Positions 92 to 41,067 of a DNA stretch of 43,607 nucleotides are shown in pieces. This DNA is from a virus: the IMG/VR virus record IMGVR_UViG_3300021976_000033, positions 1 through 43,607 of that record; one strand, 5' to 3'. The notes under the pieces were generated by a model, which was given only the letters and a program-made list of their open reading frames with translations, ran no database searches and was not told the DNA's origin. How positions within the stretch are numbered: position 1 is the first letter of the stretch; each line of letters begins with the position of its first letter. Made by a program: the position numbers and the translations under genes.

Positions 92-331
92 CTAAAAATC
101 TTTTGTAACTTTCTTATAAATACCTAAAACATTCTCTCTTACTATCTCGTCTATCGCTTGCTCATTAGCAAGTTCTTGATCAGCATCCGACAGCTGGTCA
201 GAGTCGGTCAAGATGCGTGCTAAGAAGTCAGGCGTATGGTAACCAGACGACGTGTCATATGCAAACCATGCAGGGTACTCATCGAAAGGATCATGTGGAT
301 TGTCAACTGTTGTTAGTCTTGAACGTAACAC
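92..331 (-). CDS. Hypothetical acidic protein, 79 aa
   Basis: Last gene of the leftward run, 16 nt after the stop of the RNA-polymerase-like gene. I chose the GTG at 331 because an AGAAAGGA ribosome binding site lies 7 nt upstream, overlapping that stop; a TTG at 391 would lie inside the polymerase gene and lacks a site. The product is acidic, rich in Asp/Glu, with no membrane segment and no motif I recognise. Translation is probably coupled to the polymerase gene, which hints at a related role, but function is unknown. Confidence 0.6.
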   Translation of the reverse strand: MLRSRLTTVDNPHDPFDEYPAWFAYDTSSGYHTPDFLARILTDSDQLSDADQELANEQAIDEIVRENVLGIYKKVTKDF

Positions 332-347
332 ATCTTGATCCTTTCTA

Positions 348-3011
348 TTAAGCAGTGGTTGCAGTGTCAAGAGTAGTAAGAGATACGCCAAGTGCAGAAG
401 CTACCTCAGCTCTAGTGTAACCAGAAGCCAGCATTGCTTGTGCTCTATTAGTCTTAGTAGGAGTCATGAGCTTAACGCTCTTAGGTGCAGCAAGATCCTT
501 AACTACATCCATGTCGGCGTTGTTAAGGATGTCACCAAGCTTGGACGCACTAACAGCGTTAGCTTGAATGGCTTCCCATTCATCAGATGTGATCTTGATT
601 CTCTGCTTGCCTGCACCTGTACGAACACGAGCATCAGCAAGGGCCTGGAACTTAAGCTTCTTAAGAGTTTCTGAATCCATGTTAGGATTGTAGTCTCTCT
701 TAGCCTTGATAGAAGCATTGGCTATTAGCTGGGCCTGGCGTTCAAGGGGCCGGTTCTTTACGGCGAGGGCTAGTTTAGCTTCAAGAGATTTAACTTGAAC
801 ACCATACGTTTTCCTAGCAGAGGGCGATTGTTTTGGGGCGGGGGTTCTTAAAGCATCTAGTCTTGCCTGGTTAGCTAGCCCCTTCAACCTATTAGAATGA
901 TGGGCATAGATGCGTTCCACTGGTGTACCAGATGACAGGACGTTAGCATCTGTTACTTCTGCTAGCTTAGTACTACGAGTAGTAGCACTCTTACCTGTCC
1001 TGAAATTGACACGATTGGTAGGCTCAAACCTAAGCACACCAGTGTTGGGATCAACAGGCCCACCCTTACCTACAGTACGGGGCTTACGCTCAGGTACGTC
1101 TACTCTAGACTTAGCTCTAGAGATGAGGGTGGATGCGCCACCACTCTGATACTTCTGCTTGAGCTGCTTGATTCCATTGTCATTGTAAGACTGCTTATGA
1201 TTAAGTCCATGCTTCTCTGCATCAATGACTACCATAGAATGCTTAACAGCACGAGCAAGCTCCGCTGGCGGGGCCTGACGAAGAGACATGTCCGTGATAA
1301 GGTTCGACACCTTACCCATCTCTGTCTGAGTATTCGTCATCTTCTTCATACCTGAGTATCCTGGATAGGATGACCTAGGATCGAAGCCTTTTAGATCAGC
1401 GAGAGCAGGATCTGAGCGTACTCTACGTTGATTGTTGGGGATGACGAGGACCGTATCTCCATCAAAATCTGCACCAGATAAACGTTCAGCAACAGTGTGA
1501 TGAATCCCAATAGCATCACGAGAATTTCCAAGAAGTTTTCTTCCTTCTGCATTTCTGTTATTGACCACCAGTTCAGGAATTTCAAATGGGCCACCATGTG
1601 GGTGTCGAATCAGTACGACGCGAGATCCATTGGTATAATTAGGTGCATAGATTTGTGTTGGTTCGATCTTGGAGATGGGAAGGATAACATGGGTAGCTTG
1701 CTTTGGTAAAGCGGCTGCCTTGAGATGAACAGACGCAGCATCGGTACCAGCAGCGAAGTCCTCAAGCAAACGCTTACGAACAACAGGGTTAGTTAGCGCC
1801 TTGATCTCATCATGTTGTGCCTTTCGCTGCTCATAGGTCAGATCGAGCTGTGATCTAACGAGAGCAGGACTCTGCTTGGACAACATTTGAGAAGAAAGAG
1901 TTTTACTCCATTGCTCCCAGTTACCTTCATCATAAACGATGTTCATGGACGAAGTAACCTTACCGTTTGGTGTACCGATGTTGTCACCAATCTGACGGAC
2001 AATGGTACCAAAGGGAAGTTCAGGATTCTCTTTATCCAAAGGCTTCAACGCGTCTAATTTATTTCCAGTGTTAGCTTTTTTCGTATTGAACTGAAGGTCT
2101 ACACCATCAGGTAGATCATCCTTGTAGATGGCCATGCCTTTGATGTAGTGATCCTCGCCAACCTTGATGCGAACCTGCGCATACTTTGCTCCACCAAGAG
2201 AGACGTCTTTTACCCCTGGTCGAACAAAGACTACGCCATCCGCTTGCGCGCCACCATCTTCTTTGTACTTGATGTCAAGACGCTTTGGGTTGATACCGAT
2301 AGGATCCTGAGCCCTACCGTAAGCTCTACCTCCATCATCAGAGAACCTACCAATAAACTGGATCTTATCTCGGTTAAGAAACACATCTCTCTGGGTGACA
2401 CCGGGCGCGGCAAGCACCTTTACAGTGGTCTCCAACCCAGTACCGACCTGTGTGTACTTAACTGTGTGGTAAGAATATCCTTCTTCTCGAAGCATTGCTA
2501 CAGCATTGGCCAGGCGGGTGGCAGAGACACCGTTACGACCAGCTACATTGATGTAGCTTTCAACACCAGTACCAACATCAAGGTAACCCTTGTCGGCTAC
2601 CTCAGCCTTAAGCATGTCGGCAGTACTCTTAAGTACATCCGCTTTGTCCTTGGCTCCAGGAGCAAGCAGAGATCTGACTGTAGATTCGTTCTTGCCCATA
2701 CGTTCACCAATGGCGACGTTAGACATACCTTTATCCTTCAAACGCTGAGCCATAGCAATATCGGCTTGACGTTGTCCGTTTGTGGCAATGGACTTGGCTG
2801 CCCTAAGTTCTGAGATAGAGACGTCCATGCCTCGAGCGATCTCGGATTCGCTGAGCCCATTCCCCTTCAAGTCATTAACAAAATCTATAAACTGCTTGTT
2901 ACGCTTGTTAGGACTCGTGCTAACATTTTCAGGACCACCAGAGCCCCATGGATAACGACCAGACCTACGAAGGATTCCATAGTGGAGTAGGTCGTCTTCT
3001 TGCAACTGCAT
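348..3011 (-). CDS. Single-chain DFDGD RNA-polymerase-like protein (YonO-type) with HTH domains
   Basis: An 887-residue protein. Residues 514-519 read ADFDGD, the metal-binding motif of the beta-prime double-psi beta barrel, and residues 469-471 read RHP, about 45 residues upstream, matching the R-x-P to DFDGD spacing of cellular beta-prime. A lysine-rich stretch at about 296-325 could belong to the partner barrel. Two helix-turn-helix-like segments lie near 38-76 and 84-115 and a third at the C-terminus (855-885). Residues 10-25 carry HYG and RYPWGSG. Known relatives are the single-subunit RNAP YonO of phage SPbeta and crAss-like phage virion RNAPs; many Gram-positive phages carry close homologues. 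I infer DNA-dependent transcription of phage genes. ATG with a GGGGG-type RBS 12 nt after the preceding stop. Confidence 0.8.
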   Translation of the reverse strand: MQLQEDDLLHYGILRRSGRYPWGSGGPENVSTSPNKRNKQFIDFVNDLKGNGLSESEIARGMDVSISELRAAKSIATNGQRQADIAMAQRLKDKGMSNVAIGERMGKNESTVRSLLAPGAKDKADVLKSTADMLKAEVADKGYLDVGTGVESYINVAGRNGVSATRLANAVAMLREEGYSYHTVKYTQVGTGLETTVKVLAAPGVTQRDVFLNRDKIQFIGRFSDDGGRAYGRAQDPIGINPKRLDIKYKEDGGAQADGVVFVRPGVKDVSLGGAKYAQVRIKVGEDHYIKGMAIYKDDLPDGVDLQFNTKKANTGNKLDALKPLDKENPELPFGTIVRQIGDNIGTPNGKVTSSMNIVYDEGNWEQWSKTLSSQMLSKQSPALVRSQLDLTYEQRKAQHDEIKALTNPVVRKRLLEDFAAGTDAASVHLKAAALPKQATHVILPISKIEPTQIYAPNYTNGSRVVLIRHPHGGPFEIPELVVNNRNAEGRKLLGNSRDAIGIHHTVAERLSGADFDGDTVLVIPNNQRRVRSDPALADLKGFDPRSSYPGYSGMKKMTNTQTEMGKVSNLITDMSLRQAPPAELARAVKHSMVVIDAEKHGLNHKQSYNDNGIKQLKQKYQSGGASTLISRAKSRVDVPERKPRTVGKGGPVDPNTGVLRFEPTNRVNFRTGKSATTRSTKLAEVTDANVLSSGTPVERIYAHHSNRLKGLANQARLDALRTPAPKQSPSARKTYGVQVKSLEAKLALAVKNRPLERQAQLIANASIKAKRDYNPNMDSETLKKLKFQALADARVRTGAGKQRIKITSDEWEAIQANAVSASKLGDILNNADMDVVKDLAAPKSVKLMTPTKTNRAQAMLASGYTRAEVASALGVSLTTLDTATTA

Positions 3012-3023
3012 CAGATCTACCCC

Positions 3024-3584
3024 CTAATATCGCTCGGAAGCTTTCATTGCCTCTACCTGTTGGTCGAAATGAATAATAGTATCCATGACTTCAAGAATTG
3101 TCTCAACGAATGGAACGTGCACTCGAACCTCATCGCGTTGATAGATACGAAGCTCTATCTCAATGGATGTTGGGTCAACGGCATACTCTAGGCAGAATAT
3201 CGCTGCGTATACCTCGAGTTGATGAAATGATGTAGCGACGATTCCTGTTTTGAGATCGTGGATTCGAAGTTTATTCCTACGAAAACCGATGGTATCGGCG
3301 GTTCCGAAACAATTATCCGAGTAATACAGTGATTGCTCGCACACCATCTTGTACCCGAGAGCGTCCTTGACATATACGGACAATGCCTTGTGCGAAGAGG
3401 ACAATTTGATACCAAGGCGTATTGCTTCGTGGGCAAGACTGTGTAGATCAGTACCTCTCCGCGCTGACTGGTAGGATGCATAGCGTGCCTCCAGTTTTTG
3501 ATCTGTATAATTAAGCCAATGATAATTACTAGGGCTAAGGAACGCGTGCTTACCCTGAAGACTCGAATGTTGATTGAAGATCAT
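3024..3584 (-). CDS. RecB-like PD-(D/E)XK exonuclease
   Basis: A 186-residue nuclease of the PD-(D/E)XK superfamily (RecB/Cas4/lambda-exonuclease type, like phage DUF2800 proteins). Visible motifs in order: RGTDLH near 43-48, E83, GTAD with D97, the catalytic pair D110 and K112 in HDLKTG, and Q122-x3-Y126 in HQLEVYA. It probably resects DNA ends for recombination or digests host DNA. It overlaps the VRR-NUC nuclease gene by 35 nt, and its ATG follows a strong GAGGAGG site inside that gene, so the two nucleases are co-translated. Confidence 0.85.
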   Translation of the reverse strand: MIFNQHSSLQGKHAFLSPSNYHWLNYTDQKLEARYASYQSARRGTDLHSLAHEAIRLGIKLSSSHKALSVYVKDALGYKMVCEQSLYYSDNCFGTADTIGFRRNKLRIHDLKTGIVATSFHQLEVYAAIFCLEYAVDPTSIEIELRIYQRDEVRVHVPFVETILEVMDTIIHFDQQVEAMKASERY

Positions 3585-3846
3585 TTAGAACATCCTCCTC
3601 ATTATCAGGATTAATGAAAGAGGCAAACGACATCTCATTAAACTTATCAACAAAATATCCTTGATTAGGCCTCGCAGATGCCGTGCGGCTCCTCTTCACT
3701 TCAAGCATGGCCCATCTATCACCATACAGAATAATTAGATCTGGAATGCCCGGCATCCAAGATGGATCAGTACGTATGATTGTACAACCAGGAAAAAGGT
3801 CTCGAAGACGTTTGACAAGATCAAGACGATACGCTGATTCGAGCAT
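3550..3846 (-). CDS. VRR-NUC type endonuclease
   Basis: A 98-residue single-domain nuclease. The VRR-NUC signature is clear: PGIPD (D36), then LEVK (E49 and K51), then a conserved Q62 after ARPNQ. Stand-alone phage VRR-NUC proteins form dimers and cleave branched DNA such as Holliday junctions, so processing of replication or recombination intermediates is likely. Its ATG overlaps the TAA of the preceding membrane-protein gene (TAATG), and it runs into the RecB-like nuclease gene. Length is typical for the stand-alone form. Confidence 0.85.
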   Translation of the reverse strand: MLESAYRLDLVKRLRDLFPGCTIIRTDPSWMPGIPDLIILYGDRWAMLEVKRSRTASARPNQGYFVDKFNEMSFASFINPDNEEDVLNDLQSTFESSG

Positions 3847-4208
3847 TAGCAGCTCCTTAGTCTCAAAACCTCAGGCTCATTCTGTTGATTATAAATGTCG
3901 AGGTATTCTTGAAATATGCCTTCGGGTGCATCAGTCACGATCACAAGCGTGGCACCGATAGACGCCGCGTTTGAATCGAGAGAACTCTGAATGTCTTGAC
4001 GAAGATCGTTACCGCGTTCACAAGACAATTGTTTTTCGTCCAAGTAATATTTAACACCAACACCAAGCATCACAACAACGACGGCAAGTAACACATATTG
4101 AATGGCCGTATTAATGCGATTCCACCTTATTTGGTTTATCGCTGCTTCGAACGACTCACGAGTCTTAGTGAGTTCTGTGAGAATCCGTTCAACTTGCTCG
4201 TCGTTCAC
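3846..4208 (-). CDS. Small bitopic membrane protein, 120 aa
   Basis: GTG start with a GGAGG site 6 nt upstream. A charged N-terminal region of about 30 residues that may form a coiled coil is followed by one hydrophobic segment (about 35-55) and a polar C-terminal domain of about 65 residues with two cysteines. It follows two other small genes, one with a membrane segment and one coiled coil. That trio resembles the accessory genes next to phage holins, so a lysis or membrane-remodelling role is possible, but no family is recognised. Confidence 0.65.
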   Translation of the reverse strand: MNDEQVERILTELTKTRESFEAAINQIRWNRINTAIQYVLLAVVVVMLGVGVKYYLDEKQLSCERGNDLRQDIQSSLDSNAASIGATLVIVTDAPEGIFQEYLDIYNQQNEPEVLRLRSC

Positions 4209-4751: not shown

Positions 4752-4759
4752 ACTCTCCC

Positions 4760-4786
4760 TTCATTATACAACATGTACGAGGCGCG
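4760..4786 (-). promoter_or_regulatory. Conserved 27-nt promoter-like element P1
   Basis: Reading the minus strand: CGC, 7 nt, ACATG, 2 nt, GTATAATGAA. The -10 hexamer is a perfect TATAAT. Spacing from CGC to the -10 is identical to the other eight copies. It sits just upstream of the holin-like gene. The first bases after the -10 (GAAGGGAGAGTGTG) nearly match those of P2. Confidence 0.75.
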
Positions 4787-4800
4787 GACTTGTATATACT

Positions 4801-5301: not shown

Positions 5302-5519
5302 CGGCAAAAACCGTACAAATGTACACTTTTTAGGGTATAAAAAACTTTGTATAGAATTTGCGCTTTGTATATAGTATTAGCTCTATTTATACATATTCTA
5401 TATACATACCTATTATATAATACTATAGTAAGTAATATATATAGCTATTTGTACAAGAACGGTTGTTTTCCCAGGTCAGAGCCCGGCAAACTACCGTACA
5501 AATCGAAAACAAAGTGTAC
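5302..5519. repeat. AT-rich region flanked by direct and inverted repeats; candidate origin or operator
   Basis: A non-coding stretch, by far the most AT-rich part of the window (about 5330-5460). CGGCAAA-AA-CCGTACAAAT at 5302-5320 is repeated directly as CGGCAAA-CTA-CCGTACAAAT at 5484-5503. Inside these, GTACACTT (5321-5328) and AAGTGTAC (5512-5519) form an inverted pair, and other TTGTAC/GTACAA words occur near 5450. It lies between the SF2 helicase gene and the NUMOD4-like gene. Repeats around a meltable core suit an origin or a repressor operator; neither can be proved from sequence. Confidence 0.55.
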
Positions 5520-5529
5520 AAAACGCATA

Positions 5530-7131: not shown

Positions 7132-7608
7132 GTTGTGTGTTTCTTTCTGTTGGAGAACCTGTGGGATGTGGAGGCCCTGGGCGCCCAGTGATCGCTGGAC
7201 TCTAAGATCCCCTGACCCCCACCTTCCCAAAGAAATACGTAACCGTGCTTAGGTACGCTGTCTTAGGTTTATTGCGCAGTATGCAGGCTGAAGTTTCACT
7301 ACTTCATTTAATCTCTCAACTATAGAAGAACCTGCATACTCCGTCACATCGTAGCCCGGAATCTCACCTCCAAGCTTTGCTACCAAGCTGAGTACCTGGC
7401 ATACTTCGATCCCATCTCACAAAGTGAGGGGGGTAGTCACGATGCCGATTTTTTGTCCCTCCTTGAAGCTTGCAACACTTCAAAGTTTCGGAGTACCTTC
7501 TCCGCTTACGTAGCAGGCTGGTAGGTGCTAACCCCCATTTACCCAACAGACCACGGCACCTGCTACCGCTCTGAGCCTAAAAACTATTTAACGTCGCTCA
7601 GACGACGT
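7132..7608. other. Long intergenic region with several inverted repeats
   Basis: Nearly 480 bases with no well-supported gene. It contains the perfect palindrome CTGGGCGCCCAG (7177-7188), a 10-bp inverted repeat AGTATGCAGG/CCTGCATACT (7279-7288 and 7331-7340) enclosing GAAGT...ACTTC, and GTAGCAGG/CCTGCTAC (7510-7517 and 7559-7566). Together with CTGAGC...GCTCAG near 7571-7600 these suggest structured leader RNAs, a small RNA or terminators on the minus strand. I looked for cloverleaf tRNAs and saw none. A short open frame inside it is listed separately. Confidence 0.5.
7249..7386 (-). CDS. Doubtful short open frame, about 45 aa
   Basis: Inside the long intergenic region a frame with protein-like composition (SIVERLNEVVKLQPAYCA) runs to the stop at 7249. 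Possible starts are TTG at 7386 or GTG at 7347; neither has a good RBS. In the same frame an in-frame TGA at 7417-7419 separates it from a short upstream stretch beginning GTG ACT ACC. It could be a small gene, or the remnant of one, and it overlaps the 10-bp inverted repeat. Low certainty. Confidence 0.25.
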   Translation of the reverse strand: MVAKLGGEIPGYDVTEYAGSSIVERLNEVVKLQPAYCAINLRQRT

Positions 7609-8508: not shown

Positions 8509-8765
8509 TAAGACTCCCTCAAGGTTCGTTGTGAGAAATGGACTCATCAGAATGGCCTGACAGAACCGATAGCGAGGGGCAAATCGATTCCCGCAGACAG
8601 TAAGAATCCTCCACGGCGGGCAGAGTTCTTAGCATCCTGACGAAGGTTTCTGTTCCGGGATAGCCACCGTTCCAAGGGTCTATCTACCAAAACAGAAAGA
8701 GAAGGAAAGGTGTCGTTCGCGGCGACACACTCTCCTTCATTATACTACATGTTTTTGTCGCGAGG
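8509..8765 (-). other. Leader region downstream of P2
   Basis: Contains P2, then a hairpin right at the transcript 5-prime end (GTGTCG...CGACAC, near 8712-8730), then about 200 nt before the next well-supported start. A frame encoding about 43 residues (from a TTG near 8674, ending FLLSAGIDLPLAIGSVRPF) is open on the minus strand but has no ribosome binding site. The leader may be regulatory or hold an unusual small gene. Confidence 0.4.
8736..8762 (-). promoter_or_regulatory. Conserved 27-nt promoter-like element P2
   Basis: Minus strand: CGC, 7 nt, ACATG, 2 nt, GTATAATGAA, with a perfect TATAAT. It starts 3 nt after the stop of the gene at 8766-8957. The initial transcribed bases (AGGAGAGTGTG) almost match those after P1. 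Confidence 0.75.
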
Positions 8766-16560: not shown

Positions 16561-17487
16561 CTAGATCTTGTCGTAAATGACTCCATCAACGTTGAAATCT
16601 AGGAGGATGCTCCTCTCCCAACCATTGATGAACTGAGAATTCACTGCTTCGTACATACCAAAGTCGATGTAGTTGTCACCGTTCTTTCCGATGACCCATC
16701 CGACCACGGCTCCTGCTTGGCTACGATCAATACCAAGCATGTCGTACACCTCGTTAAGAAACAGATGACCCTGGGCTCTCAGCTTCTCGTTGGCGTAGTT
16801 CTGCTGGCATTGGACGTACAGACGGTTGAACTCGGCGTTCTTCTCCCAGTGAGGACTTGCCTCATCGAAGAAGCGCGCGTACGCCGACCACTTGTTAGGA
16901 TCTGCAACTTCGGATGTCTCACCGGTCGTAGCGTCGATGGCATTGACCTTAGCGTGATAAATAGCAAGCTCTCGCTCTGCGCCAAGTTCCTGCACGACGC
17001 GCTCACGGTAGTCGTCATACGCCTTGGCAACCGCGGCGTATGCAGCCATCAGAGCCGTATTACGACGACTCAGATTGACATGAGAGCTGGTAAGCGCTGT
17101 GACGGAAAGAATACCAAGCCCAATAGCCGGAGCATACAACCGAACAACCTTATATCCGGCTTTGACGTAGACGTACGCGGTATCTCCGTCCAACTCCGAC
17201 TGCTTGTACTGTTGGATGCTGTCGGGGCCGTCTTCTTCCTTCCACGTCTTGTAGTTGGCTCGAAGCTTCTTGATGTCAGATATGTCGCCTTCAATCACCT
17301 CAAGCGTCTCTGGCAGCTTCAAAGTGGCTCGGCATGCCAGAACAGTGCTGGTCACCGATCCCGCAAGTCCAAAGCCGAACATGATATGAGGAGACTGCTT
17401 CTTCAGAATCAGCTTTCTACGATTGACTCGATGGCCAAGAGTAGGTGCTGCCTTCTTGACTAGCATTGCAAGTACTGCATTATTCAT
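16561..17487 (-). CDS. DUF6353-like membrane protein, 308 aa
   Basis: ATG at 17487 overlaps the upstream TGA (TGATG) after GGAGG. Two hydrophobic segments (about 33-55 and 112-135) bracket a soluble loop, then a large soluble domain begins with the block ALMAAYAAVAKAYDDYRERV. A second gene at 18986-19678 has the same plan (two membrane segments, then ALAVSQRAYENYRAEVVEEFG), so the two are paralogues. I recall this pattern as DUF6353 from Gram-positive phages. No function known. Confidence 0.65.
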   Translation of the reverse strand: MNNAVLAMLVKKAAPTLGHRVNRRKLILKKQSPHIMFGFGLAGSVTSTVLACRATLKLPETLEVIEGDISDIKKLRANYKTWKEEDGPDSIQQYKQSELDGDTAYVYVKAGYKVVRLYAPAIGLGILSVTALTSSHVNLSRRNTALMAAYAAVAKAYDDYRERVVQELGAERELAIYHAKVNAIDATTGETSEVADPNKWSAYARFFDEASPHWEKNAEFNRLYVQCQQNYANEKLRAQGHLFLNEVYDMLGIDRSQAGAVVGWVIGKNGDNYIDFGMYEAVNSQFINGWERSILLDFNVDGVIYDKI

Positions 17488-18116
17488 CAGATTTCCTCCA
17501 GAGGTGGGAATGAAATTCGCCAACCTTCTCGGACCTGTCGAACTTCGATAGATGAAAGATTCGTCCATCCCCACTTGTTATCGACATGAGAAGAAGGAAG
17601 TCCGAGCAGTTCATTAAGCTCTGAAACAGACACAACTTCATACATGTCCACAATATCGGTGAGACGTTCAACGACTGTATCGGCGTCTGACCTAGACTCT
17701 ACGATGACATCCTCAAAGGACTTTCGACTCTGAGTCCATCGATCAATAGGTCTCTGATCAGGCAAAGACCGGCTTTGAGAAGATATACCTCGATTGATAG
17801 GGTTGTTGTATTGGACTCTAGGGGAGTAACTATTCGTTGGGCGACGACGATGCACAGAATCACCGTAGATAAGTCTATCGGTTCCCCTAGAAATAGTTTC
17901 CACAACGAGATTCCTCAGCGCGGGTAGAAGAACCTCTGAAACAACATACTGTCCCGCTGTGTTGATATCCCCACCAAAGAATATAGCCTTGACCCTGCTA
18001 CTAATTGTCTTGGGCTTAGTGATGACATCGCCAGTAACAACCTTCTCAAGGTCCTTCGGTGGTAGAGCTTTATCCGATTTATCTTTATTAGAATTCCCTT
18101 GATAATCAGGCATCAT
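17487..18116 (-). CDS. Conserved phage protein, 209 aa
   Basis: Two ATGs in a row (18116, 18113) follow GAGGAG; the second has better spacing. The protein is basic in the middle (Arg/Ser/Asn linker of about 90-130) with a conserved C-terminal domain (VVSVSELNELLGLPS, then KWGW). It resembles a protein that in other Gram-positive phages accompanies the DUF6353-like and 149-aa genes beside it. Function unknown. Confidence 0.6.
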   Translation of the reverse strand: MMPDYQGNSNKDKSDKALPPKDLEKVVTGDVITKPKTISSRVKAIFFGGDINTAGQYVVSEVLLPALRNLVVETISRGTDRLIYGDSVHRRRPTNSYSPRVQYNNPINRGISSQSRSLPDQRPIDRWTQSRKSFEDVIVESRSDADTVVERLTDIVDMYEVVSVSELNELLGLPSSHVDNKWGWTNLSSIEVRQVREGWRISFPPLEEI

Positions 18117-18121
18117 GCTCC

Positions 18122-18571
18122 TCAGAGAACGGGCGGCTTCGGCGGGCGCATAGGCAGAGGCGGAAGACCCTTAGGCTTGTCCTGCGGACTAAGATTGTTC
18201 AGCTCAGCAGCCAGTTCCGTCGGGAGAATGCCCATGATAAAGTTGGCCGCAGACGTCTCGTTCGTACACAGCTCCATGAACAGGACATCATACGCAGCCG
18301 ACTGAGCAAACTCATCACGAAGCTGTTCGGTCTTGATAAATCGCTTACCGTCCTCAGACTTGACGCCATAGGAGTCCAGAACAATTTTCTTGAACTCTCT
18401 GATCAGGCTCTTCATGTCCTTCGAGGCGATGATCTTCTCGACCGCAGCCTTAAGGCCATCGACTTCGGACACCTCCATCTCAATCAGCTCCGCGCGGGAG
18501 ATGTTGAAATAGAATTCTTCAGTGACCTTAACATCATTGAAGTCCGTAAAAGTAATATTACGCTTGAGCAT
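18122..18571 (-). CDS. Tail-assembly-chaperone-like conserved phage protein, 149 aa
   Basis: ATG after AAGGA. The N-terminal pattern (MLKRNITFTDFNDVKVTEEF, then FNISRAELIEME) and the middle (SYGVKSEDGKRFIKTEQL, then AYDVLFMELCTN) match a family in Gram-positive phages sometimes annotated as a tail assembly chaperone. Here it is far from the tail genes, and a different chaperone-like gene lies at 31699-32241. It is therefore either a second chaperone or misnamed. Pro-rich C-terminal tail. Confidence 0.55.
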   Translation of the reverse strand: MLKRNITFTDFNDVKVTEEFYFNISRAELIEMEVSEVDGLKAAVEKIIASKDMKSLIREFKKIVLDSYGVKSEDGKRFIKTEQLRDEFAQSAAYDVLFMELCTNETSAANFIMGILPTELAAELNNLSPQDKPKGLPPLPMRPPKPPVL

Positions 18572-18592
18572 GTTTTTCCTTAAAGTTGAAGA

Positions 18593-18617
18593 CAAAAGAG
18601 AAAACCCTTGTTAGGGT
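18593..18617 (-). terminator. Small intrinsic terminator
   Basis: Minus strand: ACCCT-AACA-AGGGT stem-loop followed by TTTCTCTTTT. It follows the 55-residue membrane protein gene and precedes the 149-residue gene, so it ends or attenuates the P3 transcript. Confidence 0.65.
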
Positions 18618-18642
18618 CCTCCCTTTGTAGAAGTTGTTTTTA

Positions 18643-18810
18643 CTAAGACTTCCGGGCTCGATAGGCGCGAACAGCGCCGTCGTAGACGCGGTCAGCCAGC
18701 TTGTTAGCTGCGAAGGCAGCAACGCTGCCAAACATGAGCTTTCCAAACTGATGCACGACCGGCAGGTCTTCGACTGCGGGGGTGTCCGTGCTCTCATCGT
18801 TCTCGGTCAT
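18643..18810 (-). CDS. Small membrane protein, 55 aa
   Basis: ATG at 18810 after GAAAGGA, first gene behind promoter P3. The N-terminal 18 residues are acidic; a weakly hydrophobic helix (KLMFGSVAAFAANKLADRVY, 24-43) and a basic tail YRARKS follow, a topology expected with the tail in the cytoplasm. No family recognised. Confidence 0.65.
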   Translation of the reverse strand: MTENDESTDTPAVEDLPVVHQFGKLMFGSVAAFAANKLADRVYDGAVRAYRARKS

Positions 18811-18832
18811 TCTAGTTCCTTTCGGTAGACTT

Positions 18833-18859
18833 CTCACTATAGCGTGTGTAAAAACTGCG
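18833..18859 (-). promoter_or_regulatory. Conserved 27-nt promoter-like element P3
   Basis: Minus strand: TTCGC, 4 nt, TTTACA, then CTATAGTGAG; the -10 hexamer is TATAGT. Same spacing as the other copies. It lies just past the stop of the 35-residue gene and drives the gene at 18643-18810. Confidence 0.7.
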
Positions 18860-18861
18860 AA

Positions 18862-18969
18862 TTACTTCAAGTATTCCCAACTCAAAGCATCGAACATAGC
18901 GCCCCAATCATTTTGAGTGGCAGCGTGAGTAGCGACCCATCCGACTTCTGACAGAAAGAATTCGTACAT
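18862..18969 (-). CDS. Very small protein, 35 aa
   Basis: ATG after AAGGAGACAGAG, a good ribosome binding site, and an open frame to the TAA at 18862. Product MYEFFLSEVGWVATHAATQN and onward, with several Trp and acidic residues. Too short for a family call; it ends where promoter P3 begins. Confidence 0.55.
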   Translation of the reverse strand: MYEFFLSEVGWVATHAATQNDWGAMFDALSWEYLK

Positions 18970-18985
18970 AACTCTGTCTCCTTAA

Positions 18986-19678
18986 TTAGAAGCCCTTCAC
19001 ATAGTTGTAGTTGAACGCAAGACAAGGCTTTTCATCATGCAGAACCGTGGAGAACTCAAGTTCCATCAGCTTTAAAGATTCCCATCCAGATTGCCCAGAA
19101 CTCATGGTGTTTTCCAAGCCAATGATGTAATAGAAATCGTCCAGAGTCGCGTAGTCATGCTTCAACATTCTGGCGTTTATCTCATTCATGGCCCTGTTCA
19201 AAGACGCCATGTCACTGTTGAAATATCGACCAGTGAACAACTCGCAGCACAAGACCGTTCCAGAACCTGCGATAATCGCTGTAGGAGGATTGTCTTTAAC
19301 CCGCTTTTCAGCAATCTTGGCTAGGAGCGTCTTGTCTTTGCGTTCTCCGAATTCTTCGACAACTTCAGCTCTGTAGTTCTCATAAGCTCGCTGTGATACT
19401 GCGAGAGCCGTCTGAGCCGCCAAAGTTTTTCTTGCATCGACATGCTTGATGCCTGCAATGAATATAATCGTAGTTGCCGCGGATGCCGCACTTGGTATGT
19501 ATAGCTTCCAGACAAGTAGTGCCCTCTCTTTCAACTCCATTGCTGGGTCTTCGCTCTCAAGTCTGTGAGCGGCTCGGTACCCCGCTTGACTTGCCAAATA
19601 TGCGGTTGAGAGAACACCAACACTGGCTCCGATTGAAAGCAATATCGATGAGTTATCTTTTACGAAGCCTTTGATCAT
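18986..19678 (-). CDS. DUF6353-like membrane protein, paralogue, 230 aa
   Basis: ATG at 19678 overlaps the upstream TAA (TAATG) after AGGAGG. Hydrophobic segments at about 9-29 and 58-80, then a helical block (ALAVSQRAYENYRAEVVEEFG) like that of the gene at 16561-17487. Shorter than its paralogue, lacking most of the linker between the membrane segments. Two diverged copies this close suggest an old duplication or a hetero-complex. Confidence 0.6.
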   Translation of the reverse strand: MIKGFVKDNSSILLSIGASVGVLSTAYLASQAGYRAAHRLESEDPAMELKERALLVWKLYIPSAASAATTIIFIAGIKHVDARKTLAAQTALAVSQRAYENYRAEVVEEFGERKDKTLLAKIAEKRVKDNPPTAIIAGSGTVLCCELFTGRYFNSDMASLNRAMNEINARMLKHDYATLDDFYYIIGLENTMSSGQSGWESLKLMELEFSTVLHDEKPCLAFNYNYVKGF

Positions 19679-19971
19679 TAACCCTCCTCGATTGGAGCTC
19701 TCCACATTTCCCACTTCAAGGCGCGATATCTGCTATCGTCAAATAGGAGTGCAAGCAGCCATCGTACTTCACCGTAATCCTTGTGGAAACTGTTATTAAT
19801 ACCGATATTTCGATCAAGCCATTGAAGATTGTGTATCTCGTCAATACGCTTTCTATAATCGGGCACATCCATGCAATCTAGAAGTACCCGAAGTCTAGTA
19901 GCGACCTGCCAAGCTTGAACGAAATATAGAAAATCCTGAACTCCGGATAACCACGACATTTTCAATAACAT
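19678..19971 (-). CDS. Hypothetical protein, 97 aa
   Basis: ATG at 19971 overlaps the upstream TGA (TGATG), indicating coupling. The product is rich in aromatic residues and Arg (FLYFVQAWQVATRLRVL, RYRALKWEMW) with a hydrophobic N-terminal third that could associate with the membrane. No family recognised. Confidence 0.6.
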   Translation of the reverse strand: MLLKMSWLSGVQDFLYFVQAWQVATRLRVLLDCMDVPDYRKRIDEIHNLQWLDRNIGINNSFHKDYGEVRWLLALLFDDSRYRALKWEMWRAPIEEG

Positions 19972-20084
19972 CAGGGTGCCGCCCACATGAATATGCGCAA
20001 ACTTGCCCCAAAGATCAGGGAAAAGAGAGGCATACAAACCAATACCAACAGGAAGGCCACAAAATCTTGAGCCAACTTATCCAT
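19971..20084 (-). CDS. Tiny membrane protein, 37 aa
   Basis: ATG after AAGGAGTGAG, stop overlapping the next start. Nearly the whole protein from residue 7 on is a hydrophobic helix (FVAFLLVLVCMPLFSLIFG). One of at least six very short membrane proteins in this region. Confidence 0.65.
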   Translation of the reverse strand: MDKLAQDFVAFLLVLVCMPLFSLIFGASLRIFMWAAP

Positions 20085-20085
20085 C

Positions 20086-20334
20086 TCACTCCTTAGCGTC
20101 GCGTTCGATTCGAGCAACGATTTGTCCCGAGAGGTACCATCGGTCGCTATCAGGGAGCCGTATCGCGCCTTGGATCGACAATTCATGATAAACAGACATA
20201 ATTGCTTTGCCTTGTGTCTCAGTCGGGAATTCCTTGTGAGGCCATCCGAAGAGGACAGTTCTCTCAAGCTCTCGGAAAACTTCGCCAATTGTCGTGAAAT
20301 CCTCACGAAGCTTTTGGAAATCAATTTCAGCCAT
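20086..20334 (-). CDS. Hypothetical protein, 82 aa
   Basis: ATG at 20334 after GGAGGTGTA. Soluble and helical with a middle segment GWPHKEFPTETQGKA; no recognised motif. Lies inside the operon that begins with the SGNH hydrolase. Confidence 0.6.
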   Translation of the reverse strand: MAEIDFQKLREDFTTIGEVFRELERTVLFGWPHKEFPTETQGKAIMSVYHELSIQGAIRLPDSDRWYLSGQIVARIERDAKE

Positions 20335-20344
20335 TACACCTCCA

Positions 20345-20461
20345 TTATTTATACAGCCACACAGCTTGTGCACGGTATAAGACGTACAAGTACAGAACGA
20401 ATGCAATCACACACCAGATAGCAAGCGCGATTGCGACGTAATTCCAACCTCTCTCACCCAC
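20345..20461 (-). CDS. Tiny membrane protein, 38 aa
   Basis: GTG start overlapping the SGNH hydrolase stop by 8 nt, with AAGGA 11 nt upstream. One strongly hydrophobic helix (YVAIALAIWCVIAFVLYLYV, 8-27). The overlap suggests co-translation with the lipoprotein, so it could be a membrane partner for it. Confidence 0.6.
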   Translation of the reverse strand: MGERGWNYVAIALAIWCVIAFVLYLYVLYRAQAVWLYK

Positions 20462-21107
20462 AGCGCGTCAGTCCTTCTCGCATCATGGCGTCCCGAGCCT
20501 CTGCGGCACCTGTGTCAGGATCGAGATGGACTCCGTCGATGGCGGAGTACTGAGGACTCGCTTCGAGGATCGGCTTCCAGTCCACCAGGACGACATTCGA
20601 GTTGTCCGAAGCGAACTTGTCGATCCAAGAACGGAGTGCGTTCATAGAAGCCAGAGGACGGACAATATAGTTTGCCGGAAGCACCCACGGCTTGACGATG
20701 ACGACACATGACTCATCGGGGACCTTGTTTTGCAGAAGGTCGGTCCAGATCAATTGATCCTTGACCGTCCACAGATGATCCGCAGCCCGATAGATCTCGT
20801 TCAGACCCAAAGCCCAAACAAGATTGTCAACCGTACCGTCGGCGAGAGCCTCAGGGACGCGGTCGATTGCGGCCTCTCCATACGGGTTGTAGTCCGCGGA
20901 GGAACCCGGATCGAAATTGCCGTATGTGTGGAACGTAGAAATACCAGTCATCCAGTAGGTGTTGAACGTAACGGAGTCACCTTCGAGATGAATGGTCCCC
21001 TCCGTCTGAGGGGGGTAGTTGGGAGTGACGATCGGAGCCGGCTCACAAGCCGTACAAGCAACCGCCACCATTGCTGTCAGAGCTACGACGATACGTCGAA
21101 CCCACAT
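20454..21107 (-). CDS. Secreted SGNH-family hydrolase, probable lipoprotein, 217 aa
   Basis: ATG after AGGAG. The N-terminus is a signal peptide (MWVRR, hydrophobic core VVALTAMVAVA, then Cys18 and Cys21); the Cys position suggests lipidation, though the residue three before Cys18 is Ala rather than the usual Leu. Block I is GDSVT (Ser45), block III GLN (Asn103), block V DGVH (Asp191, His194), the catalytic set of SGNH/GDSL esterases. It would act outside the membrane on an ester or acetyl group of the host envelope. First gene after promoter P4 and about 130 nt of leader. Could alter receptors, exclude superinfecting phage or aid lysis. Confidence 0.75.
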   Translation of the reverse strand: MWVRRIVVALTAMVAVACTACEPAPIVTPNYPPQTEGTIHLEGDSVTFNTYWMTGISTFHTYGNFDPGSSADYNPYGEAAIDRVPEALADGTVDNLVWALGLNEIYRAADHLWTVKDQLIWTDLLQNKVPDESCVVIVKPWVLPANYIVRPLASMNALRSWIDKFASDNSNVVLVDWKPILEASPQYSAIDGVHLDPDTGAAEARDAMMREGLTRCG

Positions 21108-21242
21108 TTGTTTCTCCTAAGTAGTGTCCAAAAATGAAATGAGAGGTCTAGGGTTAACGGCCCAACGAAAACCGTTATTCAGTGACTTTTGTCACTACCA
21201 GGTGGGTGGGGTTTAATCCACACATTCGTGTCTCACCTTCCT
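21108..21242 (-). other. Leader of the SGNH hydrolase transcript with short ORF and hairpins
   Basis: Between P4 and the hydrolase start are a 16-codon open frame (MCGLNPTHLVVTKVTE, from about 21229) preceded by GGAAGG, a GTGAC-AAAA-GTCAC hairpin at its end, and an AACGG...CCGTT stem after it. This resembles a leader peptide with an attenuator or a translational control leader; alternatively the ORF is chance. Confidence 0.4.
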
Positions 21243-21269
21243 CTCACTATATGCCATGTAAAGCTTGCG
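21243..21269 (-). promoter_or_regulatory. Conserved 27-nt promoter-like element P4
   Basis: Minus strand: TTTTCGC, 4 nt, TTTACATG, then ATATAGTGAG; -10 hexamer TATAGT. It drives the SGNH hydrolase operon. The T-run of the preceding terminator hairpin runs into its TTTTCGC. Confidence 0.75.
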
Positions 21270-21290
21270 AAAAGGAAAGCCTCTGTGGCT
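21268..21290 (-). terminator. Short terminator hairpin before P4
   Basis: Minus strand: AGCC-ACAGA-GGCT then TTCCTTTTCG. The 4-bp stem is weak alone, but the same design (AGCC-ACAA-GGCT plus T-run) recurs before P5. It ends the 39-residue gene transcript. Confidence 0.5.
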
Positions 21291-21307
21291 ATCCTCTTTG
21301 AACTTCA

Positions 21308-21427
21308 TTATCGGTTTCGCATCTCTCGTGCGAAGATCCAGATGAGGAAGAATCCGCCGGTCAGCACCGTCAGGGTGACATCGACGAGAAATCTTCCAAA
21401 TCCGTACTTCTTCTTGCATTCAGACAT
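21308..21427 (-). CDS. Tiny membrane protein, 39 aa
   Basis: ATG after GGAGGACGCA, behind promoter P5. A short basic N-terminus (MSECKKKYGFGRF) is followed by one hydrophobic helix (VTLTVLTGGFFLIWIF, 17-32) and a basic tail REMRNR. A single-gene transcription unit with its own promoter and hairpin. Confidence 0.75.
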   Translation of the reverse strand: MSECKKKYGFGRFLVDVTLTVLTGGFFLIWIFAREMRNR

Positions 21428-21450
21428 TGCGTCCTCCAAAGATAGTAGTT

Positions 21451-21477
21451 CTCATTATACGCCATGTAAACCTTGCG
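21451..21477 (-). promoter_or_regulatory. Conserved 27-nt promoter-like element P5
   Basis: Minus strand: TTTTTCGC, 4 nt, TTTACATG, then GTATAATGAG. Closest to the consensus. It differs from P4 by only a few bases. Confidence 0.8.
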
Positions 21478-21503
21478 AAAAAGAGAAAGCCCTTGTGGCT
21501 CTC
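21478..21503 (-). terminator. Terminator hairpin before P5
   Basis: Minus strand: GAG-AGCC-ACAAG-GGCT-TT-CTC with a 2-nt bulge, followed by TTTTTCGC, whose last bases are the start of P5. It ends the 45-residue gene. Confidence 0.6.
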
Positions 21504-21529
21504 CCTTGAGATTCTTTGGATCAGATCGA

Positions 21530-21667
21530 CTACTTGATCTTGTTGACGATACCTCGAATGACTCGGTATCCGGTGTAGGCCATGGATGCGATTGCAACCT
21601 TGCCAACAACCTGGATATACAACTTGCCATTGAGGACATCATCAGCAATTTCTTCGTTTGTCTTCAT
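21530..21667 (-). CDS. Tiny membrane-associated protein, 45 aa
   Basis: ATG after AAGGAGACAAG, behind promoter P6. Acidic first 10 residues (MKTNEEIADD), a moderately hydrophobic helix (YIQVVGKVAIASMAYTGYRV, 17-36) and a basic end NKIK. Similar plan to the 55-residue protein at 18643-18810. Single-gene unit. Confidence 0.7.
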   Translation of the reverse strand: MKTNEEIADDVLNGKLYIQVVGKVAIASMAYTGYRVIRGIVNKIK

Positions 21668-21686
21668 CTTGTCTCCTTGTAGAGTT

Positions 21687-21713
21687 CTCATTATAGAGCA
21701 TGTAAAACGTGCG
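21687..21713 (-). promoter_or_regulatory. Conserved 27-nt promoter-like element P6
   Basis: Minus strand: TTTTCGC, 4 nt, TTTACATG, then CTATAATGAG with a perfect TATAAT. Drives the 45-residue gene. Confidence 0.8.
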
Positions 21714-21742
21714 AAAACCTAAACCCCTTGTGGGGATCTAGG
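21714..21742 (-). terminator. Terminator hairpin before P6
   Basis: Minus strand: CCTA-GAT-CCCC-ACAA-GGGG-TT-TAGG followed by TTTTCGC. An eight-pair stem with an internal loop and a T-run that merges into P6. It ends the 70-residue gene transcript. Confidence 0.65.
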
Positions 21743-21750
21743 CCTGAACT

Positions 21751-21963
21751 TCACTTGGACAGTCTGTTTACAGCGATCTTGCGGACGGTGTCGAACAACA
21801 TGTATGATCCCACGACTGTGATAGTCAGGAAGCACAGGGTGTTCGCAGTTTGGTCCACCCTCTCGGTGATCTCTTCTGCGCTGTAGCCTGCCTCTTCCAT
21901 GGCGTCTTCGCGGTTCTTCTTGCTCTTCTTCACCAGGCCAACTTCGATCGTTCGATTGAACAT
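21751..21963 (-). CDS. Small membrane protein, 70 aa
   Basis: ATG at 21963 after AGGAGCCAAG, behind promoter P7; the frame is open upstream to 22131 but that part covers P7 and lacks support. N-terminal basic cluster (KKSKKNRED), an acidic amphipathic middle and one membrane helix near the end (TLCFLTITVVGSYMLF, 41-56), then a basic tail. Single-gene unit. Confidence 0.7.
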   Translation of the reverse strand: MFNRTIEVGLVKKSKKNREDAMEEAGYSAEEITERVDQTANTLCFLTITVVGSYMLFDTVRKIAVNRLSK

Positions 21964-21985
21964 CTTGGCTCCTTTGTGATAAGTT

Positions 21986-22012
21986 CTCATTATATAGGCT
22001 GTAAATATAGCG
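21986..22012 (-). promoter_or_regulatory. Conserved 27-nt promoter-like element P7
   Basis: Minus strand: TTCGC, 4 nt, TTTACAG, then ATATAATGAG. Perfect TATAAT; drives the 70-residue gene. Confidence 0.75.
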
Positions 22013-22042
22013 AATTGTTTACCGAAACCTTCCCCCCGGGTA

Positions 22043-22219: not shown

Positions 22220-22312
22220 GCAAAAATGAGAAGGAGTGGTATTTCACACAGACCCGATCGTAAAATCGGCGGAATCTTTCTCAAACGCTCTTAGGCGTCG
22301 CGTCCTGCTCTT

Positions 22313-22339
22313 CTCATTATACCGAATGTAAATCCCGCG
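22313..22339 (-). promoter_or_regulatory. Conserved 27-nt promoter-like element P8
   Basis: Minus strand: TTTCGC, 4 nt, TTTACAT, then GTATAATGAG. Perfect TATAAT. Its upstream edge overlaps one arm of the 15-bp inverted repeat. Confidence 0.75.
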
Positions 22340-22396
22340 AAAGTATAGAAACCCCGCAAGACTATTATTACGTCTCACAGAGTTTCTATACTTTCG
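22338..22396 (-). terminator. 15-bp perfect inverted repeat hairpin
   Basis: CGAAAGTATAGAAAC at 22338-22352 and its exact complement at 22382-22396, with a 29-nt loop. It follows the 94-residue gene (stop at 22420) and precedes P8, the same position as the terminator hairpins before P4-P6, but it is longer and lacks a clear T-run. It could terminate transcription, protect a transcript end or bind a regulator. Confidence 0.55.
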
Positions 22397-22704: not shown

Positions 22705-22723
22705 CAGGCATCCTCTCTATGCT

Positions 22724-22750
22724 CTCATTATAGAGGATGTTTATTACGCG
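22724..22750 (-). promoter_or_regulatory. Conserved 27-nt promoter-like element P9
   Basis: Minus strand: CCGC, 7 nt, ACATC, 2 nt, CTATAATGAG. It overlaps the last codons of the holin gene, so it lies inside coding sequence yet keeps the spacing. It drives the 94-residue gene. Confidence 0.7.
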
Positions 22751-23120
22751 GAACCGGATCAAATGGCCGATCCCAGAATTCCTTGTCCTTATCGACGACC
22801 TTGAACACAACCCTTTGTTGCTTGTCGAGCTCGTCAGGATCTCCGTCCAACTGAAGAGCGAAGACCTTCTTTCCTTCAATTCGTTCGATAACGATTTCAC
22901 CATTGACATCCGCGTTGGAGTTGTTGTAAGCCTTTGTACTGACGCCAAGTACTACACCCAGGAACGTCGTGAGAAGCGCAATGCTACCCACAACCTCTTC
23001 ACCCGCTGGAAGGTCCCAAATGGCCGAAAGACCGAAATATAGAGACCCAAGTGCTGGAAGACCAACCTGTGTAACGCGCTTGACGTTGTCATATGCTGGA
23101 TTACTCAAAGTTACAGACAT
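22728..23120 (-). CDS. Holin, r1t family
   Basis: A 130-residue protein starting MSVTLSNPAYDNVKRVTQVG, the typical start of phage r1t-type holins (PF16945) in actinophages. Two hydrophobic segments (about 19-38 and 43-62) are joined by a short turn with DLPAGEEVV, followed by a charged cytoplasmic tail of about 65 residues. Holins pierce the membrane at lysis time so the endolysin can reach the wall. The endolysin is 17 kb away, not next to it. ATG with GGAGAG site, 1 nt after the Gp37-like gene. Confidence 0.8.
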   Translation of the reverse strand: MSVTLSNPAYDNVKRVTQVGLPALGSLYFGLSAIWDLPAGEEVVGSIALLTTFLGVVLGVSTKAYNNSNADVNGEIVIERIEGKKVFALQLDGDPDELDKQQRVVFKVVDKDKEFWDRPFDPVPRNKHPL

Positions 23121-38533: not shown

Positions 38534-38899
38534 CTACTTAAGCCGTCTAGTTGCCGCCTCACCTACACCTTCGCCAAACTTAGACGTAAGAGCTGCTCTT
38601 ACCGCGAGAAGACCTGCCCCGGTAAGAACCGTCTTAGCAACTCTACTACCCGAACTAGTCAGGATGTCGGCGACAAGCTTCTTTCCCTCTGAAACATCTT
38701 TGCGATTAAGTTGATTGTACTTCTTCTCGGTTTCCATTCGCTTAATGCGTTTTCCGAGCTCTATATCGCTAAGTTTCTTAGGAGCCTTGGTAAACGTGGT
38801 TCGCTGGGAACTGGACCCACCAGAAGAAGCTTTACGAACACCCCACTTCATTCCCTTTTTACCGTAGTGACTTAGAACGTCCTCTACGGGATTACTCAC
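38534..38899 (-). CDS. HYG-KGMKWG motif phage protein, 121 aa
   Basis: GTG start overlapping the upstream stop (GTGA). The N-terminus holds HYGKKGMKWGVR (11-22), a short motif found at the ends of many virion-associated proteins of Gram-positive phages. The rest is basic and helical with a hydrophobic stretch near the end (VLTGAGLLAVRAAL). The position before the terminase suggests a head protein. The RNA-polymerase-like protein at 348-3011 carries a similar motif. Confidence 0.65.
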   Translation of the reverse strand: MSNPVEDVLSHYGKKGMKWGVRKASSGGSSSQRTTFTKAPKKLSDIELGKRIKRMETEKKYNQLNRKDVSEGKKLVADILTSSGSRVAKTVLTGAGLLAVRAALTSKFGEGVGEAATRRLK

Positions 38900-40284: not shown

Positions 40285-41067
40285 TCAACCGATAACAAGC
40301 TTGTGCCAGGTATGGGGTCCAGCAACTCCATCAGGCGTTAGACCGTTCTTCTTCTGGAAATCGATCACGACATGATTAGTCGCGGGCCCAAAGGAACCGT
40401 CAACCGTGAGGTTATAACCCTTACGATTGAACTGCTGCTGCCAAAGCTCGACCGCGTGACCAGTAGAACCCAGCTTGACAGTTCCTGGGTATTCGGGAAT
40501 ACCGACCGCCGGAGGACACTGAGCGCCCTTGACTCCGAAGAGATCCACAACCGTAGCAGCGATAGCGATCGCAACACGGTCAGGACCCTTTGGGGAAGCA
40601 AGAAGCTGGGAATCCTCCATCTGAGGATCAGGATCCGGGACATTCGAATGGAACCCTCCCTCAGTGATGATGGCAAAGTCATTGCCTTGTGCAAGGGCAC
40701 GACGAACACCGTAATACCCAGCCAGCGCGGCGGTGTAGTTGTCCGGACGGAATCCGTTAGTCCAGCCGTTACGCTGGTAATGAGCCTTCCAAAGACGACC
40801 CGCCTGACCACCTCGGGCGTTCTGATAACCCACCGAAGCACCCTGAGCACCAGGAGACCGAGACGAGTCGTAGTGGATGGCAAAGAACGCGTCGCCATGG
40901 TACAGGGTGTCAGGTACATCGGCGTCAATGATACGAACCGCATGGCCGACACCGTTGATACGAACGCGACAACGCTCAGCTGCCTCGATCGCGAACTTCT
41001 GCTCACCAGGGGCGCCAGTCGCGCCAGTCTTTCGAGGAACGTGTCCCCTCTGAATCACGATCAACAT
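40285..41067 (-). CDS. Endolysin: N-acetylmuramoyl-L-alanine amidase with peptidoglycan-binding domain
   Basis: A 260-residue lysin. The amidase_3-type zinc site is visible: RGH (His9), Glu22, AIHYDS (His65) and catalytic ITEGGFHSN (Glu136). Residues about 196-258 form a PG_binding_1 domain (LGSTGHAVELWQQQFNRKGY, then GxFGPAT, then FQKKNGLTPDGVAG). It cleaves the amide between the glycan and stem peptide of the host wall. No signal peptide, so it needs a holin. It is placed upstream of the terminase genes rather than by the holin. ATG after AAGGAGGACGTC. Confidence 0.88.
   Translation of the reverse strand: MLIVIQRGHVPRKTGATGAPGEQKFAIEAAERCRVRINGVGHAVRIIDADVPDTLYHGDAFFAIHYDSSRSPGAQGASVGYQNARGGQAGRLWKAHYQRNGWTNGFRPDNYTAALAGYYGVRRALAQGNDFAIITEGGFHSNVPDPDPQMEDSQLLASPKGPDRVAIAIAATVVDLFGVKGAQCPPAVGIPEYPGTVKLGSTGHAVELWQQQFNRKGYNLTVDGSFGPATNHVVIDFQKKNGLTPDGVAGPHTWHKLVIG

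Follow-up and report, generated by a model that had tools for sequence, protein, structure and literature searches.

Among the relatives of cellular RNA polymerase, single-chain two-barrel enzymes are the simplest, and to our knowledge few of them have a known promoter. YonO of phage SPbeta is a DNA-dependent RNA polymerase (RNAP) that serves late genes (PMC5467207). The phage P23-45 proteins gp64 and gp96 are RNAPs with demonstrated activity; gp64 is a non-virion protein, and gp96 resides in the virion, fused to the tape measure (PMC10770324). Gp66 of the crAss-like phage phi14:2 is cited in PMC10770324 as a two-barrel RNAP found in the virion. The window analysed here, i.e. the whole stretch of 43,607 nt of viral record IMGVR_UViG_3300021976_000033, encodes a protein that is best explained (rough probability 0.78) as a DNA-dependent single-chain two-barrel phage RNAP with built-in DNA-binding domains, which transcribes early genes and its own operon and is perhaps delivered by the virion. 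Both its activity and its packaging are inferred.

The polymerase ORF begins with ATG and encodes 887 aa. Its catalytic and helix-turn-helix (HTH) elements are as follows.

348..3011, minus strand: predicted single-chain two-barrel RNA polymerase, 887 aa (phrog_4291 E=0; AlphaFold pLDDT 88.8; Foldseek QDE-1 2.9e-9)
2796..2891, minus strand: N-terminal HTH 1, residues 41-72 (model helices; HTH_23)
2661..2780, minus strand: N-terminal HTH 2, residues 78-117, sigma-70 region 4-like (Pfam HTH_23 and Sigma70_r4_2 above cut-off)
1929..2279, minus strand: beta-rich block of the model, residues 245-361, interpreted as barrel B; contains the invariant R281, K291 and G292 (barrel assignment inferred from fold match)
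1431..1706, minus strand: beta block of the model, residues 436-527, interpreted as barrel A (models and fold match)
1599..1607, minus strand: R469-H470-P471 motif, invariant; pairs with the R-x-P of P23-45 gp64 and gp96
1455..1469, minus strand: DFDGD metal-binding triad (D515, D517, D519), invariant in 130 sequences
354..461, minus strand: C-terminal HTH 3, residues 851-886 (Pfam HTH_7; helices in model)

The first-pass annotation had drawn attention to ADFDGD at residues 514-519 with an R-x-P motif upstream, and this is borne out by the alignment. R469-x-P471 sits 46 residues ahead of D515, and D515, F516, D517, G518, D519, R469, P471 and H472 are invariant in 130/130 non-redundant relatives, so that neither motif can be a product of chance. 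R281, K291, G292, K379 and Q380 are invariant across the same number of aligned relatives; R281, K291 and K379 are candidate basic residues of the second barrel, although they were not superposed on a solved active site. The three HTH segments that had been predicted, two before the core and one C-terminal, are all recovered both as Pfam matches and as AlphaFold helices. HTH_23 covers two stretches (E=2.4e-6, best at 86-115), Sigma70_r4_2 at residues 94-117 is just over its Pfam cut-off, and HTH_7 at residues 853-881 (E=9e-4) remains below its own. Two further statements need correction: with current tools the gene would not be labelled hypothetical, as it matches phrog_4291 ("RNA-dependent RNA polymerase") over its full length, and it is not the end of the transcription unit but its second-to-last gene, being followed by a conserved gene of 79 aa.

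Homologues were found by tblastn in 250 records of phages, most of which infect Arthrobacter, Gordonia or Streptomyces, and at 37-42% identity in Lactococcus phages 1706, P118 and CHPC971 and in Faecalibacterium phage FP_oengus. Relatives are also encoded on more than 500 viral stretches and on 138 stretches of bacterial genome contigs; none was found in the plasmids searched. The names in these records vary (HTH protein, RNA-dependent RNA polymerase, putative RNA polymerase, hypothetical), and NCBIfam holds no model for the family.

Judged by the fold matches of the predicted models, two adjacent double-psi barrels are present in the expected order (mean pLDDT of the full-length AlphaFold model 88.8); a fold lacking them, which would have refuted the first-pass reading, was not what the prediction gave. 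In a Foldseek search of the PDB the full model had 13 hits at E<=1e-3, all 13 of them two-barrel RNAPs, with QDE-1 (2.9e-9), RDR2 and gp62 of Thermus phage P74-26 (3.6e-7) as the best matches. A separate core model (residues 236-640) gave 24 hits at the same threshold, again exclusively two-barrel RNAPs (24/24), and gp64 and P74 gp62 of Thermus phages were among its best fold matches. TM-scores of the core model were 0.51-0.58 to QDE-1 and 0.44-0.58 across QDE-1, RDR2 and gp62/gp64. All of this rests on predicted models, without residue-level superposition.

A search of PDB sequences with the single polymerase sequence found no relative, and a PDB profile search returned only HTH, designed and chance matches plus a weak match to P23-45 gp96 (8h2n, E=0.61), which falls at the correct place. 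In profile comparison the R-x-P and DxDGD motifs of P23-45 gp96 and gp64 pair with those of the polymerase family. The kinship with two-barrel RNAPs proposed in the first-pass annotation stands, but membership of the YonO family does not: the protein matches phrog_4291 at E=0, whereas the YonO profile phrog_8308 reaches only E=0.0079, over residues 447-527 (the DFDGD barrel), and hhalign of the polymerase family against YonO gave no match. We consider it very likely that the gene product is an active two-barrel RNAP, RNA synthesis being an inference from fold and conservation.

The polymerase has a gene of its own within the replication module, neither fused to nor beside giant virion or tail proteins. 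Its neighbours are:

92..331, minus strand: 79-aa protein after the polymerase (phrog_4303), in the same place in 1706, Bilo, Pepy6, Mudcat and FP_oengus
3024..3584, minus strand: exonuclease (phrog_3953) of the polymerase operon (profile match)
3550..3846, minus strand: endonuclease of the polymerase operon, VRR-Nuc type in relatives (profile match)

The phrog_4303 protein lies directly 3' of the polymerase in 6/6 records examined, has 12 invariant residues and is a possible partner. Three other observations concern the rest of the window. A Pistol ribozyme (RF02679, 50.4 bits against a gathering threshold of 34.5) is located at 7537-7607 (minus strand), inside a 580-nt intergenic gap of the replication region. 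A very AT-rich gap of 222 nt (5308-5529) with short TATATA-like stretches follows the helicase gene and precedes an HNH endonuclease gene; it is a possible origin or regulatory region. Two genes of one unknown family, phrog_2152, are found at 18986-19714 and 16561-17574 (minus strand).

A repeat search of the window identified a family of 35-nt repeats before small genes at 18.8-22.7 kb. The repeat core, TTTACATNNNNTATARTGAGA, occurs in 7 copies, against 0.25 expected from shuffles. Aligned sites gave the consensus TCGCA-N3-WWWACA-N5-TATARTGAGA (about 29 bp), and the position weight matrix (PWM) built for the motif holds about 34 bits over 36 modelled columns. The sites in the window are:

4759..4787, minus strand: promoter motif upstream of the polymerase operon, a weak copy (PWM 13.8)
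8735..8763, minus strand: promoter motif (PWM 27.6)
18832..18860, minus strand: promoter motif (PWM 36.8)
21242..21270, minus strand: promoter motif (PWM 38.0)
21450..21478, minus strand: promoter motif (PWM 40.1)
21686..21714, minus strand: promoter motif (PWM 39.6)
21985..22013, minus strand: promoter motif (PWM 30.2)
22312..22340, minus strand: promoter motif (PWM 35.3)
22723..22751, minus strand: promoter motif (PWM 32.5)

A sigma-70 layout (TTGACA, 16-18 nt, TATAAT) was considered for these repeats and rejected, the conserved blocks being TCGCA-N3-WWWACA-N5-TATAAT. A scan of the promoter region for sigma-70 promoters found 6 against 6.7 expected, which is the level of chance.

The motif is also present before early or non-structural genes in phages of Streptomyces, Arthrobacter and Rhodococcus, with variants in Lactococcus phages and in Clostridia. 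At <=3 mismatches it occurs on the gene strand in 18/20 family genomes, and in all 20 genomes with PWM sites these are confined to the gene strand, with 0 on the opposite one. The median distance from motif to annotated start codon is 24 nt (30/39 within 80 nt), and a Shine-Dalgarno-like GAAAGGA usually lies between the two. In Poco6, 11 sites were found in the 50 kb scanned, the first of them at 40,920, past the tail genes; none lies in its left, structural part or in the left 24 kb of 1706. From its position before non-structural genes and its absence from these structural modules, the motif appears to mark early or non-structural genes, where "early" is inferred from gene order and size in the absence of expression data. 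Outside the family, PWM scans of phages sk1 and phiC31 found no motif, and it was absent from the stretches of SPbeta and P23-45 that were scanned.

Some features of individual copies may be recorded here. Between 13404 and 15790 of ReqiPepy6, several annotated start codons fall inside or right at the motif, and translation there probably begins some 15-30 nt further downstream. At 14373 and 14496 in ReqiPepy6 and at 42665 and 43095 in ReqiPoco6, one copy directly precedes a tRNA gene, and the next is followed by 276 nt without an annotated gene that hold GAGACGCGAATGCG and may represent a small RNA. Motif copies in the window (about 21240) and in a further genome (G001) are followed by GTGAGACACGAA stretches of a similar kind. 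In FP_oengus, a repeated hairpin-like element, CTGTGGAGAAATCTGCGGCTCTTTTT, stands before many small genes at 4.9-22.9 kb and likely represents terminators.

The link between motif and polymerase was examined without protein information, by scanning 2.9 million viral contigs for the exact motif pattern. Among the 26 motif-found contigs of at least 38 kb, which were those tested, 24 encode the polymerase and the other 2 end before the gene's place. Because the phages that carry the motif form a related lineage, its co-occurrence with the polymerase is not enough to identify the polymerase as its reader. The variant forms are CGCGAAAAATACAGCCTCCTTTATGG in FP_oengus, CGCR-N6-ACA-N5-CTTTTATGAAGAGAG in the clostridial prophages and TTTTACATACACTATAGTAGAA in 1706. 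For FP_oengus, the de novo search rated the reverse complement as equally likely, which is inevitable when the same sites are turned, and strand counts (9 to 0) were used instead. In the clostridial prophages, 67 sites lie upstream of the polymerase gene and 3 downstream, with 0 on the reverse strand; most are about 900-950 nt upstream, at the start of the nuclease-exonuclease-polymerase operon. On a tree of 75 polymerases, from which the HTH columns were left out, the downstream types TATART and TTTTATG require 1 change, while shuffles need 23 (0/500 as low). This agreement is strong but not proof, since shared descent of whole phages could give the same pattern.

We infer that the polymerase probably reads a promoter of the motif class. 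The earlier proposal of a phage that uses its own polymerase to transcribe part of the genome gains support from this cognate promoter class in the window and in relatives, RNA synthesis itself being inferred. According to the mechanism that we propose, the HTH domains at both chain ends would read the motif in place of a sigma factor, contacting an upstream half (CGCR-N6-ACA) and a downstream half (TATARTGAGA or TTTTATGAAGAG). Transcription would start at or near GAGA, about 24 nt ahead of the start codons. The polymerase would thereby drive the small early genes as a block, the genes that come next, and its own nuclease-exonuclease-polymerase operon, creating positive feedback. More tentatively, an N-terminal HYG...GRYPWGSG tag may load the polymerase into the virion, from which it would be ejected with the DNA, allowing early transcription to begin before any phage protein is made. 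Virion loading would also solve the problem of how a self-driven polymerase operon is started.

Two features bear on this last step.

2937..2990, minus strand: N-terminal peptide LxHYGxxRxSGRYPWGSG, residues 8-25, near invariant and predicted disordered; candidate packaging tag
38534..38899, minus strand: head-module protein with N-terminal DUF7211 tag (LSHYGKKGMKWGVRK), adjoining the terminase gene (PF23847 E=4.2e-12)

Whether the polymerase is delivered by the virion is, in our judgement, evenly balanced; packaging is inferred and no virion proteome is at hand. It might instead be made early from host-read promoters and stay out of virions, as do P23-45 gp64 and YonO, the N-terminal peptide then serving folding or promoter binding; we rate this a little short of even odds. 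Such an enzyme would fit a gene in the replication module beside nucleases with its own upstream promoter, as well as the size of the protein, since a folded protein of about 97 kDa would not pass the tube of a siphovirus tail without unfolding. Against it stands the near invariance of residues 8-25, which are among the best conserved although AlphaFold predicts residues 1-38 to be disordered. The peptide also resembles the 25-aa DUF7211 tag LxHYGxKGMKWGxR (PF23847; HYGxKGMKWG) of head-module proteins, and this likeness suggests a loading tag. It is only a resemblance: the polymerase does not match the DUF7211 Pfam profile even at E<=10, and the profile comparison of the two used sequences chosen for HYG. 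In addition, the original GenBank record of 1706 names the homologue orf75 "structural protein" (RefSeq later renamed it), and the record of Pepy6 gp106 notes "similar to 1706_gp75, structural protein". In a replication region, where similarity is unlikely to have given this name, it suggests proteomics as the source; the phage 1706 paper is said to report mass spectrometry of virions.

DUF7211 itself, whose function is unknown, has the look of a mobile cargo tag and is found at the N-terminus of varied proteins near terminase and portal. It occurs on six consecutive ReqiPoco6 genes (17635-21957), twice around a GNAT acetyltransferase in Bilo gp6 (2269-3171), and twice in 1706 gp07 (2501-3889), which is itself named "structural protein". 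A literature search for the GMKWG peptide together with "phage" and "motif" gave no match. Tentatively, and with slightly less than even support, a widespread siphovirus lineage of Actinobacteria and Firmicutes may combine a QDE-1-like polymerase, packaged by a DUF7211-like tag that it shares with other cargo (the acetyltransferase and others), with a sigma-independent 29-bp promoter that is read by built-in HTH domains and from which infection is started.

It is unlikely, though possible, that host RNAP reads the motif, with sigma-A on TATAAT and a phage activator on the TCGCA/WWWACA half, while the two-barrel protein does something else or serves late genes only. T4 MotA with AsiA is an example of a phage activator that works with host RNAP, and several conserved phage proteins of unknown function exist. 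One point against our preferred reading lies here: host sigma factors also recognise TATAAT, which is contained in the actinobacterial form, and the TATARTG of actinophages looks like a -10 box. Across the variants, however, it is the upstream half and the spacing that are kept and the -10-box-like half that is not: in Clostridia and FP_oengus TATAAT is replaced by TTTTATG or CTTTATGG, neither of which is a -10 box. The motif subtype goes with the clade of the polymerase, and this holds also for TATART-type members whose contigs were binned to Firmicutes. Furthermore, sigma promoters usually show less than the approximately 34 bits seen over 29 bp here, where TGAGA is also conserved, and early genes need transcription before a phage activator exists.

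Transcription from DNA by the polymerase is also to be set against the name RNA-dependent RNA polymerase, which RefSeq and PHROGs use and which most likely derives from a QDE-1-like match. QDE-1 and plant RDR2 are indeed the closest folds, but a dsDNA phage has no known need to copy RNA, the family has a specific DNA promoter, YonO and the P23-45 RNAPs, which share this fold, depend on DNA templates (PMC5467207, PMC10770324), and QDE-1 has also been solved with DNA templates (7y7r, 7y7s); an RNA-copying role is thus very improbable. SEA-PHAGES annotators, and with them many records, name the family "helix-turn-helix DNA binding domain protein", which would fit a catalytically dead relative that merely binds DNA through its HTH domains. 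This is less plausible still: the full triad, R-x-P and the other residues presumed to form the active site do not vary in 130 divergent sequences, a constraint that a dead enzyme would not maintain.

The polymerase thus belongs to a known family, phrog_4291, for which "HTH protein" and "RNA-dependent RNA polymerase", the names in public records, probably both mislead. With hundreds of members, tractable hosts (Streptomyces, Arthrobacter, Lactococcus) and a candidate promoter that is sharply defined, the family allows sigma-free promoter recognition to be tested directly and supplies a new pair of polymerase and promoter. Should the tag result prove true, DUF7211, a Pfam peptide of unknown function, would become a candidate capsid-loading signal. 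No description of a promoter, tag or activity of the polymerase was found for these phages in the literature searched, and within these sources the promoter class and the tag link appear to be new.

Compared with known systems, the nearest solved folds, QDE-1 and RDR2, are eukaryotic RNAi enzymes of fungal and plant gene silencing that have neither promoter nor HTH. DUF7211 (PF23847) is an N-terminal L-x-H-Y-G ... W-G peptide on phage proteins; the polymerase has a similar one, with SGRYPWGSG where DUF7211 has GMKWGVR. Packaging of crAss gp66 is reported to rest on experiment, whereas that of the window polymerase is inferred; gp66 was not among the fold hits listed for the polymerase models. 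YonO (phrog_8308; PMC5467207) is likewise a phage-encoded single-chain two-barrel RNAP with a catalytic Asp triad, but it represents a separate family and serves late genes, while the likely targets here are early or non-structural genes. P23-45 gp64 and gp96 (PMC10770324) are single-chain two-barrel phage RNAPs with family-specific promoters, as proposed here, but they form separate sequence families, and gp96 is a tape-measure fusion rather than a separate gene product with HTH domains at both ends. Closest of all are the phrog_4291 members (1706 orf75, Mudcat gp94, Bilo gp57, Pepy6 gp106 and the "putative RNA polymerase" of FP_oengus), which match over the full length, belong to the same family and occupy the same place beside the exonuclease, in most cases near the genome end.
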